NCBI GenBank assembly: GCA_009773355.1
Contig: WRPG01000030.1
Span: 65,182 to 118,711, forward strand
DNA from: Limisphaerales bacterium
GTDB lineage: Bacteria; Verrucomicrobiota; Verrucomicrobiia; Limisphaerales; SXTU01
Direction: 5' to 3'
Length of the DNA: 53,530 bases
Part shown: positions 26,077 to 36,083 of the stretch, piece by piece
How the letters are laid out: every line of letters starts with the position of its first letter
How positions within the stretch are numbered: position 1 is the stretch's first letter
The notes under the pieces: generated by a model
Seen by the model: the letters and a program-made list of their open reading frames with translations, nothing else
Told to the model about the DNA's origin: nothing
Database searches by the model: none
Translations under genes and position numbers: made by a program

Positions 26077-26790
26077 GTGGCTGAGTCAACCGGCAGCATC
26101 TCCGTGATCATCCCGACGCTGAATGAAGCGGCGGAACTGCCGGAGACCTTGCGGCGGCTGCGGCTGGTGCCGGAGGTGAGGGAGGTCATCATCGCGGATG
26201 GCGGGAGCCGGGATGACACGGTGAAGCTGGCGCAGGAGGCGGGCCGCATGGTGGTGAACTGCGAGTCGGGCCGCGGGCGGCAACTGCGCGCGGGAGCGGA
26301 GCGGGCGACGGGCGAAGTCGTCTTGTTCCTGCACGCGGACACTTGGGTGCCTCCGGCAGCGGGGCGGGCGTTGCTGGCTTGCCTGGCGCGGCCCGGCGTG
26401 GTGGCGGGCGGGTTCTACAAGGTTTTCCGCGACCCGCCGAGCTGGCTGGTGCGCGGCTCGCGGTTCAAGTGCTGGTGGCGGCTGCTGGTTGCGCGGCGCG
26501 TGATGGCGGACCAGGGGATTTTTCTCCGACGCGAGACGCTGACGCGCATCGGCGGCGTGCCGGACGTGCCGCTGATGGAGGAGTTCGAGCTGTGCAAGCG
26601 GCTGCGACTACTTGGGCGCATCGCGCTGGCGGACGCGACGGTGGTCACCTCGGCGCGAAAGTTCCGCAAGCTGGGCGTGCTGCGGACTTATGCGCTGATG
26701 TGGCGGGTGACTGCGGGCTACCACCGGGGCGTGCCGCTGGAGGAGCTGCGGCGGTGGTATGAGGGGGAGGGCGTAAAACGTAATGCGTAA
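26077..26790 (+). CDS. TIGR04283-type GT2 glycosyltransferase
   Basis: 237 residues starting at GTG 26077. GT-A fold: ISVIIPTLNEAAELPETLRR (8-27), VIIADGGSRDDTVKLAQEA, LFLHADTWVPP (DxD-like), WWRLLVARRVMADQGIFLRR and PLMEEFELCKRLRLLGRIAL. This is the pattern of the TIGR04283 family, named after arsenosugar loci. A TAGAGT box (26065-26070) ends 6 bases before the GTG. The last residues (GEGVKRNA) and the TAA stop are encoded by the heptamer repeat at 26771, so the native C terminus may have been altered. Confidence 0.85.
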   Translation: MAESTGSISVIIPTLNEAAELPETLRRLRLVPEVREVIIADGGSRDDTVKLAQEAGRMVVNCESGRGRQLRAGAERATGEVVLFLHADTWVPPAAGRALLACLARPGVVAGGFYKVFRDPPSWLVRGSRFKCWWRLLVARRVMADQGIFLRRETLTRIGGVPDVPLMEEFELCKRLRLLGRIALADATVVTSARKFRKLGVLRTYALMWRVTAGYHRGVPLEELRRWYEGEGVKRNA

Positions 26791-26861
26791 AACGTAAGGG
26801 CCAACGGCCTTCGCGAGCCGACGGCCCTTACGTTTTACGCATTACGCATTACGTTTTACTC
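26771..26861. repeat. Inverted repeat built from GCGTAAA/ACGTAAT heptamers
   Basis: The left arm reads GCGTAAA, ACGTAAT, GCGTAAA, ACGTAAG (26771-26798), then GGGCC. The right arm reads GGCC then CTTACGT, TTTACGC, ATTACGC, ATTACGT, TTTACTC (26827-26861). The period is 7. The left arm supplies the stop codon of the preceding glycosyltransferase. The right-arm words recur as a single arm at 32124-32151. Confidence 0.85.
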
Positions 26862-31112: not shown

Positions 31113-31661
31113 ATGTCCGCTGAAACCCACACTCCGCCGCCCGCCGAACGCTCCCCTGCGCTTCAGTCGCTGAACAACTTCATCTTTCTGAGCCGCTGGC
31201 TGCAGGCACCGCTTTATGTCGGTCTCATCGTCGCGCAAGGCGTGTATGTCTATCGCTTCATGGTGGAGCTGTGGCATCTGGTGCTCAAGACCACCTCGCT
31301 CCAGGAGGCGGAACTCATGCTCATGGTGCTGGGGCTGATTGACGTGGTGATGATCGCGAACCTGCTCGTCATGGTGATCGTGGGCGGCTACGAGACGTTC
31401 GTGTCGCGGCTCAATCTCGAAGGGCATCCCGACCAGCCGGAATGGCTCTCGCACGTCAACGCGGGCGTGCTGAAGGTCAAGCTGGCGATGGCGCTCATCG
31501 GCATCTCCTCCATCCACCTGCTCAAGACCTTCATCGAAGCGGACAAGCTGACGGACAAGGTCATCATGTGGCAGGTGCTCATCCACCTCACCTTTGTTGT
31601 CTCGGCGCTGATGCTGGCGTGGATTGACCGGATCATCGCGCCGCCGAAGGCGGAGCACTGA
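31113..31661 (+). CDS. UPF0114 / TIGR00645 (YqhA-like) membrane protein
   Basis: 182 residues with four hydrophobic helices: APLYVGLIVAQGVYVYRFMV, MLMVLGLIDVVMIANLLVMVIVGGYETFVSRL (containing the family's DVVMIANLL and GYE landmarks), VKLAMALIGISSIHLLKTFI, and VLIHLTFVVSALMLAWIDRI. This matches the YqhA/UPF0114 inner-membrane family of unknown function. The gene precedes the redox trio by 70 bases on the same strand and may share its transcript. Start at ATG 31113. Confidence 0.9.
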   Translation: MSAETHTPPPAERSPALQSLNNFIFLSRWLQAPLYVGLIVAQGVYVYRFMVELWHLVLKTTSLQEAELMLMVLGLIDVVMIANLLVMVIVGGYETFVSRLNLEGHPDQPEWLSHVNAGVLKVKLAMALIGISSIHLLKTFIEADKLTDKVIMWQVLIHLTFVVSALMLAWIDRIIAPPKAEH

Positions 31662-31731: not shown

Positions 31732-32124
31732 ATGCCCGACGCGCCGCGAATACTTTACTGCCACTGCCAATACGCGCAGGTCGTTCCGCCTGAGGTGAAG
31801 GAGGCCGTGCTGAAAAAGCTCTCCGACTCCGGCGTGGCCTTCGACGCCGTGGCCGACCTCTGCGAAATGAGCGCGCGGCAGGATCCGTCGCTCAAGCGCC
31901 TGGCCGACGGCGGCCCGGTGAAGATCGCCGCCTGCTTCCCGCGCGCCGTGAAGTGGCTCTTCCACACCGCCAAGGCCGACCTCCCGCTCGACACCGCCGA
32001 GGTGCTCAACATGCGCGTGCAAACCGCCGAGGAAGTCTGCGCAGCCCTCTTCAACGGCGCAGTTCAGCCAAACTTGCCCAAAGGCAAAGTCACCGGCACC
32101 GACGCCCCGAAAGCCGACGCCTGA
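31732..32124 (+). CDS. Stand-alone HdrA N-terminal-domain-like redox protein
   Basis: 130 residues. The frame is open upstream to 31624, but only from ATG 31732 (MPDAPRILYCHCQYA) is it protein-like. The Cys pattern CxC at 10-12, Cys44 (ADLCEMS) and Cys68 (KIAACFPRAV) follows the N-terminal domain of heterodisulfide reductase subunit A (CHCG..., ...mCS..., ...aACSPR...), in which such a segment contributes an Fe-S site; the rest of HdrA is absent. It is followed, after a spacer made wholly of a heptamer repeat, by a 2x[4Fe-4S] ferredoxin and then a radical SAM gene. A small electron-transfer role is inferred; the resemblance was made by eye. Confidence 0.6.
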   Translation: MPDAPRILYCHCQYAQVVPPEVKEAVLKKLSDSGVAFDAVADLCEMSARQDPSLKRLADGGPVKIAACFPRAVKWLFHTAKADLPLDTAEVLNMRVQTAEEVCAALFNGAVQPNLPKGKVTGTDAPKADA

Positions 32125-32151
32125 TTACGTTTTACGCATTACGCATTACTC
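32124..32151 (+). repeat. Single arm of ATTACGT/TTTACGC heptamers filling an intergenic gap
   Basis: ATTACGT, TTTACGC, ATTACGC, ATTACTC, a 7-base period. The same words in the same order form the right arm of the inverted repeat at 26771-26861. It begins on the last base of the upstream stop codon and ends three bases before the next ATG (32155). Confidence 0.8.
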
Positions 32152-32154
32152 CCC

Positions 32155-33009
32155 ATGTCCCTCACCACCGCCGCCACCCTCCGCGTCGTCCTCTACGAAG
32201 GCGCCGACTCCGCCCCGCTCGCCAGCACCGACCGCTTCTCCGCGCTGACCGCGCTGCTGGAGAAGGGCTTCGCCGTCACCCGCGCCGTCGCGGGCGGACG
32301 CGTCGCGCCGCATGAGCGCGGGTCGTTGATCGTGCTCGGCCAGTTTGCCGGGCGCACGCCCGAGGCCGAGGGCGTGACCGCCGGCACCATCGTGCGCTTC
32401 CAGGACATCACCGGCCTCGACGCCGCGCGCATCGCCGAGCGCGCCGAGGCCGTGCAGACCGAGACCGGCGCCGCGCGCCACGGCGAGTGGAAGCCGTGGT
32501 TCCCGGTCATTGACTACGACCGCTGCACGAACTGCATGCAATGCCTGAGCTTCTGCCTCTTCGGCGTCTATGGCGTGGACGAGCAGAACAAGATTCAGGC
32601 GCAGAACCACGACAACTGCAAAACCAACTGCCCCGCCTGCTCGCGCGTCTGCCCCGAGGCCGCCATCATGTTCCCGAAATACAAGGCTGGCCCCATCAAC
32701 GGCGACGAGGTGCAAGCCTCCGACCTCGGCAAGGAGAAGATGAAGATAGACATCTCCTCGCTCCTCGGCGGCGACGTCTATTCCCAGCTCCGCCAGCGCA
32801 GCGACGCCGCCAAGGCCCGCTTCAGCAAGGAGCGCGACGACAAGAAAGCCCTGGCCGAGCGCCAGAAATGCCTCACCAAGCTCGCCAGCGCCGCCAGCGA
32901 CATCCCGGCAGAAGTCCTGATGAACCTGCCGTCTCCCGAGGAAATCATGCGCCGCGCGGAAGAGGCCAAGGCGAAGGCCCAGGCGGCGTTGGCGGCGAAT
33001 CGTCAATAG
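32155..33009 (+). CDS. 2x[4Fe-4S] ferredoxin-domain protein
   Basis: 284 residues. An N-terminal domain of about 110 residues without Cys (TLRVVLYEGADSAPLASTDR ...) precedes a dicluster ferredoxin module: YDRCTNCMQCLSFC (Cys 124, 127, 130, 134) and CKTNCPACSRVCPEAA (Cys 155, 159, 162, 166). The C-terminal third is highly charged and helical (EEIMRRAEEAKAKAQAAL). It lies between the HdrA-N-like gene and, beyond an inserted ATPase gene, a radical SAM enzyme. Likely an electron carrier for that enzyme or for an unknown reductase; inference from context. No Shine-Dalgarno sequence is present, since the repeat fills the leader. Confidence 0.85.
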   Translation: MSLTTAATLRVVLYEGADSAPLASTDRFSALTALLEKGFAVTRAVAGGRVAPHERGSLIVLGQFAGRTPEAEGVTAGTIVRFQDITGLDAARIAERAEAVQTETGAARHGEWKPWFPVIDYDRCTNCMQCLSFCLFGVYGVDEQNKIQAQNHDNCKTNCPACSRVCPEAAIMFPKYKAGPINGDEVQASDLGKEKMKIDISSLLGGDVYSQLRQRSDAAKARFSKERDDKKALAERQKCLTKLASAASDIPAEVLMNLPSPEEIMRRAEEAKAKAQAALAANRQ

Positions 33010-33021
33010 AAAGTCGCAGCG

Positions 33022-34809
33022 ATGATTACCAAGCTGACAATCGAGAACTTCAAAAGGTTCGGCCAGAAGGTCGAAATCGAACTCGGCAGTCCGGTCGTGT
33101 TTGTGGGGCCGAACAACTGCGGAAAAACCACCGCACTACAGGCTCTGGCACTATGGGAAACCGCTGCCCGTCGCTGGTTTGAGAAGCGTCACCCAGACGT
33201 GACCACAGCGTCGGAGCGCGCCGGCGTTCCCATCAACCGCAAGGACATCTTGTTCGCACCTGTGCCTGACTCGAAGGTTTACTGGCACGGACTTCACGTC
33301 CGGCGCGGGGTCAAACGCAAAGGGAAGGCGGCCACCCAGAACATCCGCATGAACATCGTGGTCGAGGGTGCCACGGAAGACCGCACATGGGTTTGCGGGT
33401 TCGAGTTCGACTATCAGAACGCGGAAACTTTTAATATCCGACCACTTCGCAAAGCCGGGTTTGATGACTCGCCGGTCGCGGAGGCGGAATACACGGTTCC
33501 ACCGGAAGCCGCCGGCAAAGTCCGCATCGCCTATCTGCCGCCCATGTCGGGTCTGGCCAGCATCGAAGACCGTTTGGACTCGGGCGCGATTCGACGCAGG
33601 ATTGGTGAAGGACGCACTGCGGAAGTGTTGAGAAATCTCTGCTATTCGCTGCTTCATCCGGACAACAATGGAGGCGACCCGGACATCGCCACCCAGCGCT
33701 GGGAGGAGTTGAAGCGAACGATGAAGACTTTGTTCGGAGTCGAGTTGTTGGAGCCTGCCTACAACGCAGACCGTGGAGAAGTTACGATGTCCTACCGGGA
33801 CAGGGCGGGAACGGAACTCGATTTGTCGAGTTCTGGGCGCGGCATGCAACAGACGTTGTTGCTTTTCGCTTACCTCTACGCAAATCCGGGCACCGCCATC
33901 TTGCTGGACGAACCTGACGCCCACTTGGAGGTTTTACGTCAGCGGCAAACCTACAACCTGCTGGTGGAAACGGCCCGACAGCTGCATTCGCAAGTCATCG
34001 CTGCCAGCCACTCGGAAGTAGTGCTAAACGAGGCGGCAGGAAAGGACTGTGTCGTGGCGTTCGTCGGCAGCAAACCGCACGTCATCTCCGACCGTGGCAG
34101 CCAGCTCGTAAAGGCACTTACCACGTTTGGTTTCGAAAACTATGTGCTCGGGGAAACCAAAGGCTGGGCGCTCTATCTCGAAGGCTCCACCGACTTGGCC
34201 ATCCTCAAGGCACTTGCTGCGGTTCTCAAGCACCAGGAGGCAGTTCAATGTCTCGAATCCCCCTTTGTTCACTACCTGAACACCAACCTGCCGCAAAGCG
34301 CCCGAGAGCATTTTTACGGAATCCGTGACGCGGTTCCAAACTTAGTTGGCTTCGCGCTTTTTGACCGCATAGACAAGCCGCTCCAGTCCCAAGATTGCTA
34401 CGTGGAAGCAGCTTGGAGCCGTAGAGAGATTGAAAACTACCTCTGCACCCGTGAGGTGCTTTTGCGGTTTGCGCGCGGGACTGAAGCAGATGCGGACCTG
34501 TTCAGTGCCTCTGAAGCGGACATCCGGGTGAAAGCGATGGAGAAGGCTATCACTGATGTGGAGCAGTCACTCCAAGTGCTCGACAAACCCAGCCCTTGGT
34601 CGGCCGATTGCAAGGTGAGCGATGACTTTCTCCGCCCGCTGTTCAAGGCTTACTTCGCTGCCCTCAAGATGCCGAACGTGATAGCGAAGTCCGATTACCA
34701 CCAGTTGGCGCCGTTTCTACAACCCAGTGACGTGGACATCGAAGTCCGCGCGAAACTCGACCAACTTGTTGCAATCGCATCCAAAGCCAAGCCGGCATCT
34801 CAGGGCTAG
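33022..34809 (+). CDS. OLD-family-like AAA ATPase with TOPRIM-type C terminus (possible anti-phage defence)
   Basis: 595 residues. An SMC/ABC-like ATPase opens with ITKLTIENFKRFGQKVEIEL and Walker A GPNNCGKTT (29-37). Signature SSSGRGMQQTLLLFAYLY lies near 269-286, Walker B AILLDEPDAH at 292-301 and H-loop ASHSE at 328-332. The C-terminal region shows a TOPRIM-like pattern: LYLEGSTDLAILKAL (Glu387, Asp391), FALFDRID (Asp448) and SRREIENYL (466-474). This is the layout of class 1 OLD nucleases and related defence ATPases. No nuclease partner or UvrD-like gene is adjacent, so it would act alone. G+C (about 53-62% in sampled lines) is below that of its neighbours, and it separates the ferredoxin from the radical SAM gene, suggesting a later insertion. 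Confidence 0.85.
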   Translation: MITKLTIENFKRFGQKVEIELGSPVVFVGPNNCGKTTALQALALWETAARRWFEKRHPDVTTASERAGVPINRKDILFAPVPDSKVYWHGLHVRRGVKRKGKAATQNIRMNIVVEGATEDRTWVCGFEFDYQNAETFNIRPLRKAGFDDSPVAEAEYTVPPEAAGKVRIAYLPPMSGLASIEDRLDSGAIRRRIGEGRTAEVLRNLCYSLLHPDNNGGDPDIATQRWEELKRTMKTLFGVELLEPAYNADRGEVTMSYRDRAGTELDLSSSGRGMQQTLLLFAYLYANPGTAILLDEPDAHLEVLRQRQTYNLLVETARQLHSQVIAASHSEVVLNEAAGKDCVVAFVGSKPHVISDRGSQLVKALTTFGFENYVLGETKGWALYLEGSTDLAILKALAAVLKHQEAVQCLESPFVHYLNTNLPQSAREHFYGIRDAVPNLVGFALFDRIDKPLQSQDCYVEAAWSRREIENYLCTREVLLRFARGTEADADLFSASEADIRVKAMEKAITDVEQSLQVLDKPSPWSADCKVSDDFLRPLFKAYFAALKMPNVIAKSDYHQLAPFLQPSDVDIEVRAKLDQLVAIASKAKPASQG

Positions 34810-34829
34810 TTCGTAAGTCCACCACCCTC

Positions 34830-36083
34830 ATGCTCCCCGCCCTCGCCCTCCGCACCCTTCGCTTCGCTGACAAGCGCTGCATCGCCAAGTTCGTTTGGAA
34901 CTTCGGCGTGAAGGGCATGCTCTCCGTCGAGCGCTTCAAGCGCCGGCTCGCGCGTGGCGAGACCTTCCCGCCGTTCCTCTACCTCTCCATCATCAACTCC
35001 TGCAACCTCCGCTGCCAGGGCTGCTGGGTGGATGTCGAGGAGAAGGACTCCATTGATCTCGCCACCCTGAACCGCACCATCGAGGACGCGCAGGCGCACG
35101 GGAACGGCTTCTTCGGCATCCTCGGCGGCGAGCCGTTCATGCACCCGCAGCTCCTCGACCTGCTCGCGGCGCACCCGGACTGCTACTTCCAGATTTTCAC
35201 CAACGGCCAGTTCATCACCGAGAAGGTGGCGAAGCGCCTGCGCGAGATTGGCAACTGCACGCCGCTCATCTCCATCGAGGGCCGCGAGGTGGTCAGCGAC
35301 GAGCGGCGCGGGAAGAAGGACGTGCTGAACAAGACCCTGCGCGGCCTCGACCACTGCCTGCGCGAGGGCATCCTCACCGGCGTCGCGACCAGCGTCTGCC
35401 AGACGAACATTGACGAGTTGCTCACTGAGGAATGGCTCCAGCACCTCATCAAGCGCGGCGTCCACTACGCCTGGTATCATACTTACCGGCCCGTCGGCCC
35501 GAAGATGAACATGGCCCTCGCGCTGCGGCCCGACCAACTCGTGCGCGTGCGCCGGTTCGTCACCGAGATGCGCGCGCGCCTGCCCATCGCGATCATTGAC
35601 GCCTACTATGACGGCGAGGGCCAGGCGCTCTGCCCCATGTCCACCGGCGTCTCGCACCACATCGGGCCGAAGGGCGACATCGAGCCGTGCCCCATCATCC
35701 AGTTCGCCAAGGAAACCATCCACGACGAGCGCGGCATCTACGAAACGATGCGCGACAGCGCGTTCCTGAAGGACTTCCGCGAACTCAGCGCCGAGCACAC
35801 GCGCGGCTGCGTGGTGCTGGAGCGCCCCGACCTGGTAAAGCAGCTCGTGGTGAAGCACGGCGCGCGCGACACCACCGTGCGCGGCACCGCGCTGGCCGAA
35901 CTCGACGCCATGACGCCGCGCTTCAGTCAATGGCTCCCCGGCGAGGAAATCCCCGAGAAGCACTGGATGTATCGCATCGCCAAGAAGTATTGGTTCAGCG
36001 ACTTCGGCGCGTATCGGAAGGCGGACCACGCGCGGACCGTGGCGGCGAAGACGAAGCAGCTTGTTGAAGCCGGACACGGCTGA
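34830..36083 (+). CDS. Radical SAM enzyme of the redox trio
   Basis: 417 residues. SAM/[4Fe-4S] motif NSCNLRCQGCW (CX3CX2C, Cys 58, 62, 65), then FFGILGGEPFMHPQL (GGEP, SAM amino group) and IFTNGQFITEKVAKRL. A later Cys set (GQALCPMSTGVSHHIGPKGD, IEPCPIIQFA, TRGCVVLERP) resembles a SPASM/twitch auxiliary cluster. The C terminus carries an extra helical region (PEKHWMYRIAKKYWFSDFGA). Start at ATG 34830. It follows the OLD-like gene by 20 bases, but the natural partners are probably the ferredoxin (32155) and HdrA-N-like protein (31732), which could supply electrons. The substrate is unknown; no precursor peptide was seen nearby. Confidence 0.87.
   Translation: MLPALALRTLRFADKRCIAKFVWNFGVKGMLSVERFKRRLARGETFPPFLYLSIINSCNLRCQGCWVDVEEKDSIDLATLNRTIEDAQAHGNGFFGILGGEPFMHPQLLDLLAAHPDCYFQIFTNGQFITEKVAKRLREIGNCTPLISIEGREVVSDERRGKKDVLNKTLRGLDHCLREGILTGVATSVCQTNIDELLTEEWLQHLIKRGVHYAWYHTYRPVGPKMNMALALRPDQLVRVRRFVTEMRARLPIAIIDAYYDGEGQALCPMSTGVSHHIGPKGDIEPCPIIQFAKETIHDERGIYETMRDSAFLKDFRELSAEHTRGCVVLERPDLVKQLVVKHGARDTTVRGTALAELDAMTPRFSQWLPGEEIPEKHWMYRIAKKYWFSDFGAYRKADHARTVAAKTKQLVEAGHG

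Follow-up and report, generated by a model that had tools for sequence, protein, structure and literature searches.

The HdrA-N-like, ferredoxin, and radical SAM genes of the window

The stretch of DNA analyzed here (the window; 53,530 nucleotides of contig WRPG01000030.1 from a Limisphaerales bacterium) comes from a draft genome of 6.16 Mb in 162 contigs and encodes a small protein resembling the N-terminal domain of HdrA (the HdrA-N-like protein, HdrAN), a ferredoxin (Fd), and a radical SAM enzyme (rSAM), which together are probably part of a larger gene set for a cyclized isoprenoid. The locus contains the following genes (aa, amino acids):

31732..32124, + strand: HdrA-N-like protein, 130 aa, ATG start, with four conserved cysteines (C10xC12, C44, and C68 in AC[FYH]PRAV)
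32155..33009, + strand: 2x[4Fe-4S] ferredoxin, 284 aa, with a Rossmann-like domain free of cysteines at the N terminus (~9–104) and a helical C-terminal tail that contains an invariant Cys239
33022..34809, + strand: AAA/OLD-like ATPase, 595 aa (Pfam AAA_15/AAA_21), a lineage-specific insertion between the ferredoxin and rSAM genes
34830..36083, + strand: radical SAM enzyme, 417 aa, with CxxxCxxC and the auxiliary-cluster candidates C268, C287, and C327

The original prediction had described a 130-residue protein carrying the HdrA N-terminal cysteine pattern alone, followed by a 2x[4Fe-4S] ferredoxin with a long N-terminal extension and a radical SAM enzyme with extra C-terminal cysteines. The first of these descriptions is borne out by cysteine spacing and conservation in 113 relatives, and the second by an extension of about 105 aa. 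The radical SAM enzyme and its three additional cysteines are likewise real, but the enzyme does not directly follow the ferredoxin, the intervening 595-aa ATPase having been missed.

HdrAN and ferredoxin form a conserved, frequently fused pair

Among 113 relatives of the HdrA-N-like protein, C44 and C68 are present in 113/113, while the CxC pair (C10 and C12) is retained in 107/113, the remaining six being alignment gaps. The spacing of these residues (CxC-31-C-23-C) closely matches that of HdrA in the solved structure 8rvu (CxC-32-C-24-C). No significant family match was obtained for this protein in Pfam, NCBIfam, or PADLOC, nor did a profile search against PDB sequences find a relative. An AlphaFold (AF2) model was of high confidence (pLDDT 90.4), and HdrA N-domains (7bkd, 8rvu, 7bkb, 5odi, 5odh, and 5odc) made up six of the ten best matches in a fold search (Z 6.0–6.5, 106–119 aligned residues, 17–19% identity, root-mean-square deviation 3.9–4.6), tied with generic Rossmann folds. 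As a control, a model of the ferredoxin extension, likewise Rossmann-like, yielded no HdrA entry among its best 50. Profile–profile comparison with HdrA (hhalign) was weak, yet aligned the last cysteine and an N-x-R motif. The predicted fold of the small protein is thus compatible with the HdrA N-terminal domain, the comparison that had been proposed alongside the original prediction.

The ferredoxin exhibits two cluster motifs, CTNCMQCLSFC and CKTNCPACSRVCP, with cysteines invariant in 16 divergent relatives. Its N-terminal extension was considered as a flavodoxin or an HdrA-N duplicate; neither assignment was supported, as the extension has a generic Rossmann-like fold with no HdrA match and low model confidence elsewhere. 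The conserved cysteines of HdrAN, ferredoxin, and rSAM, as seen in these alignments and those described below, are not attributable to chance.

HdrAN and ferredoxin are encoded as a single fused open reading frame in 31 of the 106 loci having both, and in all 75 unfused pairs the two genes share a strand, the median distance between their domains being 44 nt; some contigs are present in two locus sets, such that these counts are not fully independent. Fused homologs consist of the HdrAN and Fd parts only, except for one at L071 (5414–7381; 656 aa) in which a C-terminal ECF sigma factor is joined in frame, either a real fusion or an assembly or frame effect.

Electrons in HdrA are reported to travel through the N-terminal cluster toward the ferredoxin domain, and a partner subunit contributes one of the cluster's ligands (PMC9012536). 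HdrA normally contains a flavin adenine dinucleotide (FAD) domain, although the domain content of these proteins varies (PMC12054007). No Pfam or NCBIfam match to a thioredoxin-reductase-type FAD domain was found in either the HdrA-N-like protein or the ferredoxin, and there is therefore no bifurcation site in the pair. HdrB and HdrC were not seen among the conserved neighbor families, although no search was aimed at them. Given the position of the HdrA N-terminal cluster on the path to ferredoxin and the absence of the FAD domain here, the HdrAN–Fd pair looks, by analogy, like the outlet of HdrA without its flavin engine; by the defining FAD domain, it is not HdrA.

The radical SAM enzyme appears to represent a family of its own

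The rSAM protein matches PF04055 above cut-off (E=2.9e-13) and carries the motif CNLRCQGCW. The cluster-binding residues C58/C62/C65 and the GGEP motif are conserved in 133–134 of 134 relatives, and C268, C287, and C327 are invariant in 134/134. These three invariant C-terminal cysteines fall short of a full SPASM set, in which seven are required for two auxiliary clusters. The best NCBIfam matches were to AhbC (3e-17), NirJ2 (4e-17), and HpnH (1.5e-9), but rSAM fits no NCBIfam equivalog: AhbC scored 62 bits against a cut-off of 650, HpnH 37 against 225, and NirJ was also below its cut-off. The nearest solved relatives are SkfB (6efn, 5e-22) and BlsE. At least 577 relatives were confirmed in the genome collection, and on these sequence criteria rSAM is a conserved family in its own right.

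HdrAN, ferredoxin, and rSAM co-occur across genomes

Presence and absence were compared in 58 related genomes, of which 38 contain HdrAN, 36 of those same genomes ferredoxin, and 36 rSAM (E<1e-60). HdrAN co-occurred strongly (both/first only/second only/neither) with ferredoxin (36/2/0/20, p=1.3e-13) and rSAM (34/4/2/18, p=2.5e-9), and co-occurred also with the cyclase (33/5/5/15, p=4.4e-6) and the CobW-like GTPase (31/7/1/19, p=1.2e-8) described below. When the window's genus was collapsed to one entry, the HdrAN–Fd and HdrAN–rSAM associations still gave p<1e-9, and all pairs had p<=1e-5 at the genus level. The gene following ferredoxin in 101 loci was rSAM in 60, a fusion of DUF116 with a polyprenyl-diphosphate synthase (DUF116-PPS) in 11, and an AAA ATPase in two. 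The three genes thus lie next to one another in numerous further genomes and occur there as a unit; with this and the HdrA-compatible fold of the small protein, neither of the two refuting conditions set out with the original prediction was borne out.

The gene set spans Verrucomicrobiota, Planctomycetota, and some Acidobacteriota-labeled genomes, and a named isolate, Brevifollis gellanilyticus, carries HdrAN, Fd, and rSAM together. Environmental metagenome-assembled genome (MAG) records titled “Akkermansia muciniphila” also carry the module (L146, L148, L150, L165, L184, L202, and L218), titles which are probably mislabels.

The module lies in a conserved gene set with isoprenoid enzymes

In relatives, the full gene set comprises a NifS-like cysteine desulfurase, a GcvH-like protein, a CobW-like GTPase, HdrAN, Fd, rSAM, DUF116-PPS, an alpha-toroid protein, and a cyclase. 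All nine genes, in this order and on one strand, are seen in Planctomycetales bacterium ZRK34 (L204), a Phycisphaerales MAG (L220), and a MAG labeled Bryobacterales (L217). The constant core consists of HdrAN–Fd, rSAM, DUF116-PPS, and the alpha-toroid protein, with the cyclase present in 35 loci.

DUF116-PPS is a fusion of PF01976 and PF00348, in which the synthase retains the first DDxxD motif in 95/95 sequences and the second DD in 93/95, and the DUF116 domain has seven invariant cysteines across the 95. The alpha-toroid protein (~300 aa) is prenyltransferase-like (PF00432). Set against the zinc ligands expected in prenyltransferase beta subunits, positioned without an alignment, the Asp in “PDLLSTA” is conserved and Leu and Tyr stand at the expected Cys and His. 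The cyclase (~600 aa) is class II squalene-cyclase-like, with both SQHop domains (SQHop_cyclase_C, 5.7e-40) and a DxDD motif in every full-length member, and scores below the TIGR01507 hopene cyclase equivalog cut-off (102 versus 431 bits).

The remaining three genes were added in a derived clade. The GcvH-like protein has the lipoyl-lysine motif (K82 in E-x-x-K, invariant in 49/49) and, while below the TIGR00527 cut-off (80.5 versus 115.85 bits), scores nearer to GcvH than to the GcvH-related desulfurization family. The CobW-like GTPase has an invariant CFCC motif, and the desulfurase loop is present in the NifS-like protein. The conserved neighbors (DUF116-PPS, toroid, cyclase, GcvH-like protein, CobW-like GTPase, and NifS-like protein) place the module in isoprenoid biosynthesis, and the earlier statement that no known pathway fits cannot be upheld in its strong sense.

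In the window genome, the other members of the set, apart from the GTPase and GcvH-like genes, are found on separate contigs: DUF116-PPS on C52, with both DDxxD motifs (DDIED and DDLSD), the toroid on C27, and the NifS-like protein and cyclase (DADDT) on C30. The three genes had been correctly recognized but are only a fragment, these other members of the set lying elsewhere in the same genome. The window's genus branches within the full-cluster carriers in the rSAM tree, which argues that the three-gene arrangement is a derived, broken-up state.

Beside the operon in basal clades (L114, L115, L117, L118, L120, L140, L142, L107, and L109) are genes for a NapG-like polyferredoxin, a NapH-like membrane ferredoxin, an NHL-type lipoprotein, and PQQ-like beta-propellers; these neighbors may act as a membrane partner in electron transfer. 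In 20 loci (e.g., L041:8393–9601, L116:5198–6382, and L142:294–1601), covering many basal lineages and several congeners, the gene immediately upstream of HdrAN, on its strand, encodes a secreted PQQ_2 beta-propeller; the window itself has no such gene there.

A proposed electron relay for radical chemistry on a cyclized isoprenoid

The gene content, motifs, co-occurrence, fusion, gene order, and phylogenetic nesting observed here are most consistent with HdrAN and ferredoxin forming a flavin-less electron relay that works with rSAM in a conserved gene set for a cyclized isoprenoid (terpenoid-type) product (probability roughly 0.58). Because the iron–sulfur protein, ferredoxin, and rSAM belong to a set with isoprenoid-chain and ring-closing enzymes, they probably provide electrons and radical chemistry for a ring-shaped lipid. 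The PPS domain, with its intact DDxxD motifs, would make the isoprenoid chain, and the DxDD squalene-cyclase-like protein, perhaps together with the toroid, would close the rings, as suggested by its family and motif. The radical SAM enzyme, with an auxiliary iron–sulfur cluster, may then make or break an unactivated C–H or C–C bond on the chain or ring. Low-potential electrons would pass via the ferredoxin and the HdrA-N-like cluster to the SAM-binding cluster of rSAM, a route to which adjacency, fusion, co-occurrence, and the analogy to HdrA all point. In the derived clade, the NifS-like, GcvH-like, and CobW-like proteins would have an accessory role, possibly as the source of sulfur, a swinging arm, or a metal. 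Break-up of the operon in the window's genus would have left only HdrAN, Fd, and rSAM together. The electron-delivery module of the original prediction is thus retained as the best reading for the iron–sulfur and radical chemistry; the acceptor is probably rSAM but may be DUF116, given the 11 of 101 loci in which DUF116-PPS follows ferredoxin.

Several observations weigh against a relay serving rSAM in isoprenoid cyclization. The HdrA fold matches are no better than those to generic Rossmann folds, and the hhalign probability for HdrA was only 9–13% (E 0.004; 0.0005 when a deeper alignment was used). The acceptor is uncertain, because ferredoxin is followed by DUF116-PPS, not rSAM, in those 11 loci and because in L127 and L128 rSAM lies with GcvH on a contig apart from HdrAN–Fd. 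Whether or not they carry the module, 57/58 genomes have a squalene/phytoene synthase (PF00494), which makes squalene a possible substrate of the cyclase and leaves the substrate not pinned down; for the same reason, a missing synthase fails as a sign of a non-squalene substrate. Beyond the genus collapse, the co-occurrence statistics ignore phylogeny. Finally, neither the GTPase nor the GcvH-like gene was found in the window genome, although seven congeners have the GTPase.

The chief competing explanation, which we consider unlikely, is that HdrAN–Fd reduces the Cys-rich DUF116 domain of the PPS fusion (e.g., for reductive removal or coupling at an allylic diphosphate), with rSAM fed by general ferredoxins or flavodoxins. 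The seven invariant cysteines in 95 DUF116 sequences and the 11 loci with DUF116-PPS directly after the pair speak for this route, as does the adjacency of relay and DUF116-PPS in L107–L109; in the L108 and L109 genomes, rSAM lies on a different contig together with GcvH (L127/L128). It is countered by rSAM directly following ferredoxin in 60/101 loci and by the almost perfect co-occurrence of rSAM with HdrAN, and any redox function of DUF116 is putative. Still less probable is a cofactor or sulfur-transfer system with a logic akin to that of sHdr/LbpA, in which sulfur from NifS, a lipoyl-type GcvH arm, CobW-type metal delivery, and HdrA-like redox would cooperate and the isoprenoid genes would serve a lipid anchor or an unrelated branch. 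NifS-like, GcvH-like, and GTPase genes, with desulfurase loop, K82, and CFCC motif intact, do head the operon in Planctomycetota, Acidobacteriota-labeled, and crown Verrucomicrobiota loci. However, basal clades contain HdrAN–Fd, rSAM, DUF116-PPS, toroid, and cyclase without NifS, GcvH, or GTPase, indicating that what stays constant is the isoprenoid genes rather than the sulfur genes; the closer score of the GcvH-like protein to GcvH than to the desulfurization family is also unfavorable.

It is highly improbable that the HdrA-N-like protein is what remains of a decayed full HdrA and that its neighbors are accidental. The variable domain content of HdrA proteins (PMC12054007) and the rearranged locus in the window's genus would accommodate decay, but the four cysteines are conserved in more than 100 relatives, the fusion to ferredoxin is conserved, and co-occurrence is strong; such conservation in many families already contradicts it. 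With the relay–rSAM reading preferred, a more far-reaching proposal can be made only tentatively: that the set encodes an oxygen-independent pathway, not yet described and widespread in Verrucomicrobiota, Planctomycetota, and some Acidobacteriota-labeled genomes, for cyclic isoprenoid lipids or isoprenoid redox cofactors of a new class, in which a flavin-free relay derived from HdrA would drive a new rSAM family, the DUF116 domain fused to the prenyl synthase, or both.

Comparison with known systems

The HdrAN–Fd pair resembles HdrA in its CxC...C...AC[SF]PR spacing (within one residue), the N-x-R after the last strand, the predicted Rossmann-like fold, and the joining to a 2x[4Fe-4S] ferredoxin. 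It differs in lacking the FAD domain, in its isoprenoid context, and in the low identity of the structural alignment (17–19%). Similarly, rSAM shares CxxxCxxC, GGEP, and partial SPASM-like C-terminal cysteines with the SPASM/twitch enzymes AhbC, NirJ, HpnH, SkfB, and BlsE, but has three extra cysteines as opposed to the seven of full SPASM and is far below all NCBIfam equivalog cut-offs. The combination of a class II DxDD cyclase, a prenyl-diphosphate-forming enzyme, and a radical SAM protein is reminiscent of squalene-hopene cyclase/hopanoid operons with HpnH; the present set, in contrast, adds HdrAN, Fd, DUF116, toroid, GcvH, GTPase, and NifS, and its cyclase and rSAM score below the hopene cyclase and HpnH cut-offs. 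The sHdr/lipoate-binding-protein system of sulfur oxidation has an operon that encodes an HdrA-like iron–sulfur part together with a GcvH-like lipoyl carrier. On this general description the two are alike in that operon sharing, whereas the constant partners here are isoprenoid enzymes and the GcvH-like protein is missing from basal clades.

Verrucomicrobial terpene clusters have been reported (PMC8692599), in passages that do not describe the gene set of the present module. No described cluster of the same make-up was found in the open-access literature searched, a body outside which most subscription journals lie. The parts are of known kinds; a terpenoid gene set with its own iron–sulfur and radical machinery is, within that literature, a new combination.

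Other features of the window and insertions in its genus

Two further features adjoin the module genes in the window:

31113..31661, + strand: UPF0114/TIGR00645 membrane protein (E=5e-37), a neighbor at the genus level only
32124..32151, + strand: dispersed intergenic repeat (TTACGTTTTACGCATTACGCATTACTC), located in the gap between the HdrA-N-like and ferredoxin genes

UPF0114 had been suggested as a co-transcribed partner. It lies upstream of the module in four loci only, all from the window's genus, and was rejected as a module partner. The intergenic repeat (TTACGTTTTACGCATTACGCATTACTC; TTTTACGCATTACGCATTACG...) has approximately 20 copies genome-wide, with window copies also at 26771–26854 (near 26771 and 26833). 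No sigma-70-like promoter or terminator stood out between the module genes of the window.

The AAA ATPase between Fd and rSAM was likewise rejected as a partner, being found among relatives only in the window genome (G000) and a congener (G007). It resembles defense ATPases of the AriA/GajA/PtuA type (PADLOC best 2e-21) and may include a TOPRIM-like part, to judge by an “EGSTD” stretch. Congeners differ in what has been inserted: either DUF1592/DUF1552 genes separate HdrAN from Fd, or the AAA ATPase separates Fd from rSAM. In L039, L040, L043, L046, L047, and L148, loci which represent the window's genus and the related L046/L148, HdrAN has as neighbors a DUF1592/PSD-type planctomycete cytochrome-family gene and a DUF1552 gene, mostly placed between it and Fd. 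The HdrAN locus in these lineages is an insertion hot spot. Fragments of second rSAM and Fd copies were detected near intact ones (L041:2–352; G046:C3:56558–56653 and 57544–57642), which suggests duplication and decay in that lineage.

Significance

An orphan HdrA-like domain, DUF116, and a radical SAM family without assigned function are tied here to one conserved gene set with recognizable isoprenoid enzymes. The named isolate Brevifollis gellanilyticus and the complete ZRK34 genome, which contains the whole operon, make the product testable. If the proposed function is correct, these bacteria would make a lipid by radical chemistry, and parts of HdrA would serve as a plain electron wire in a role other than energy metabolism.

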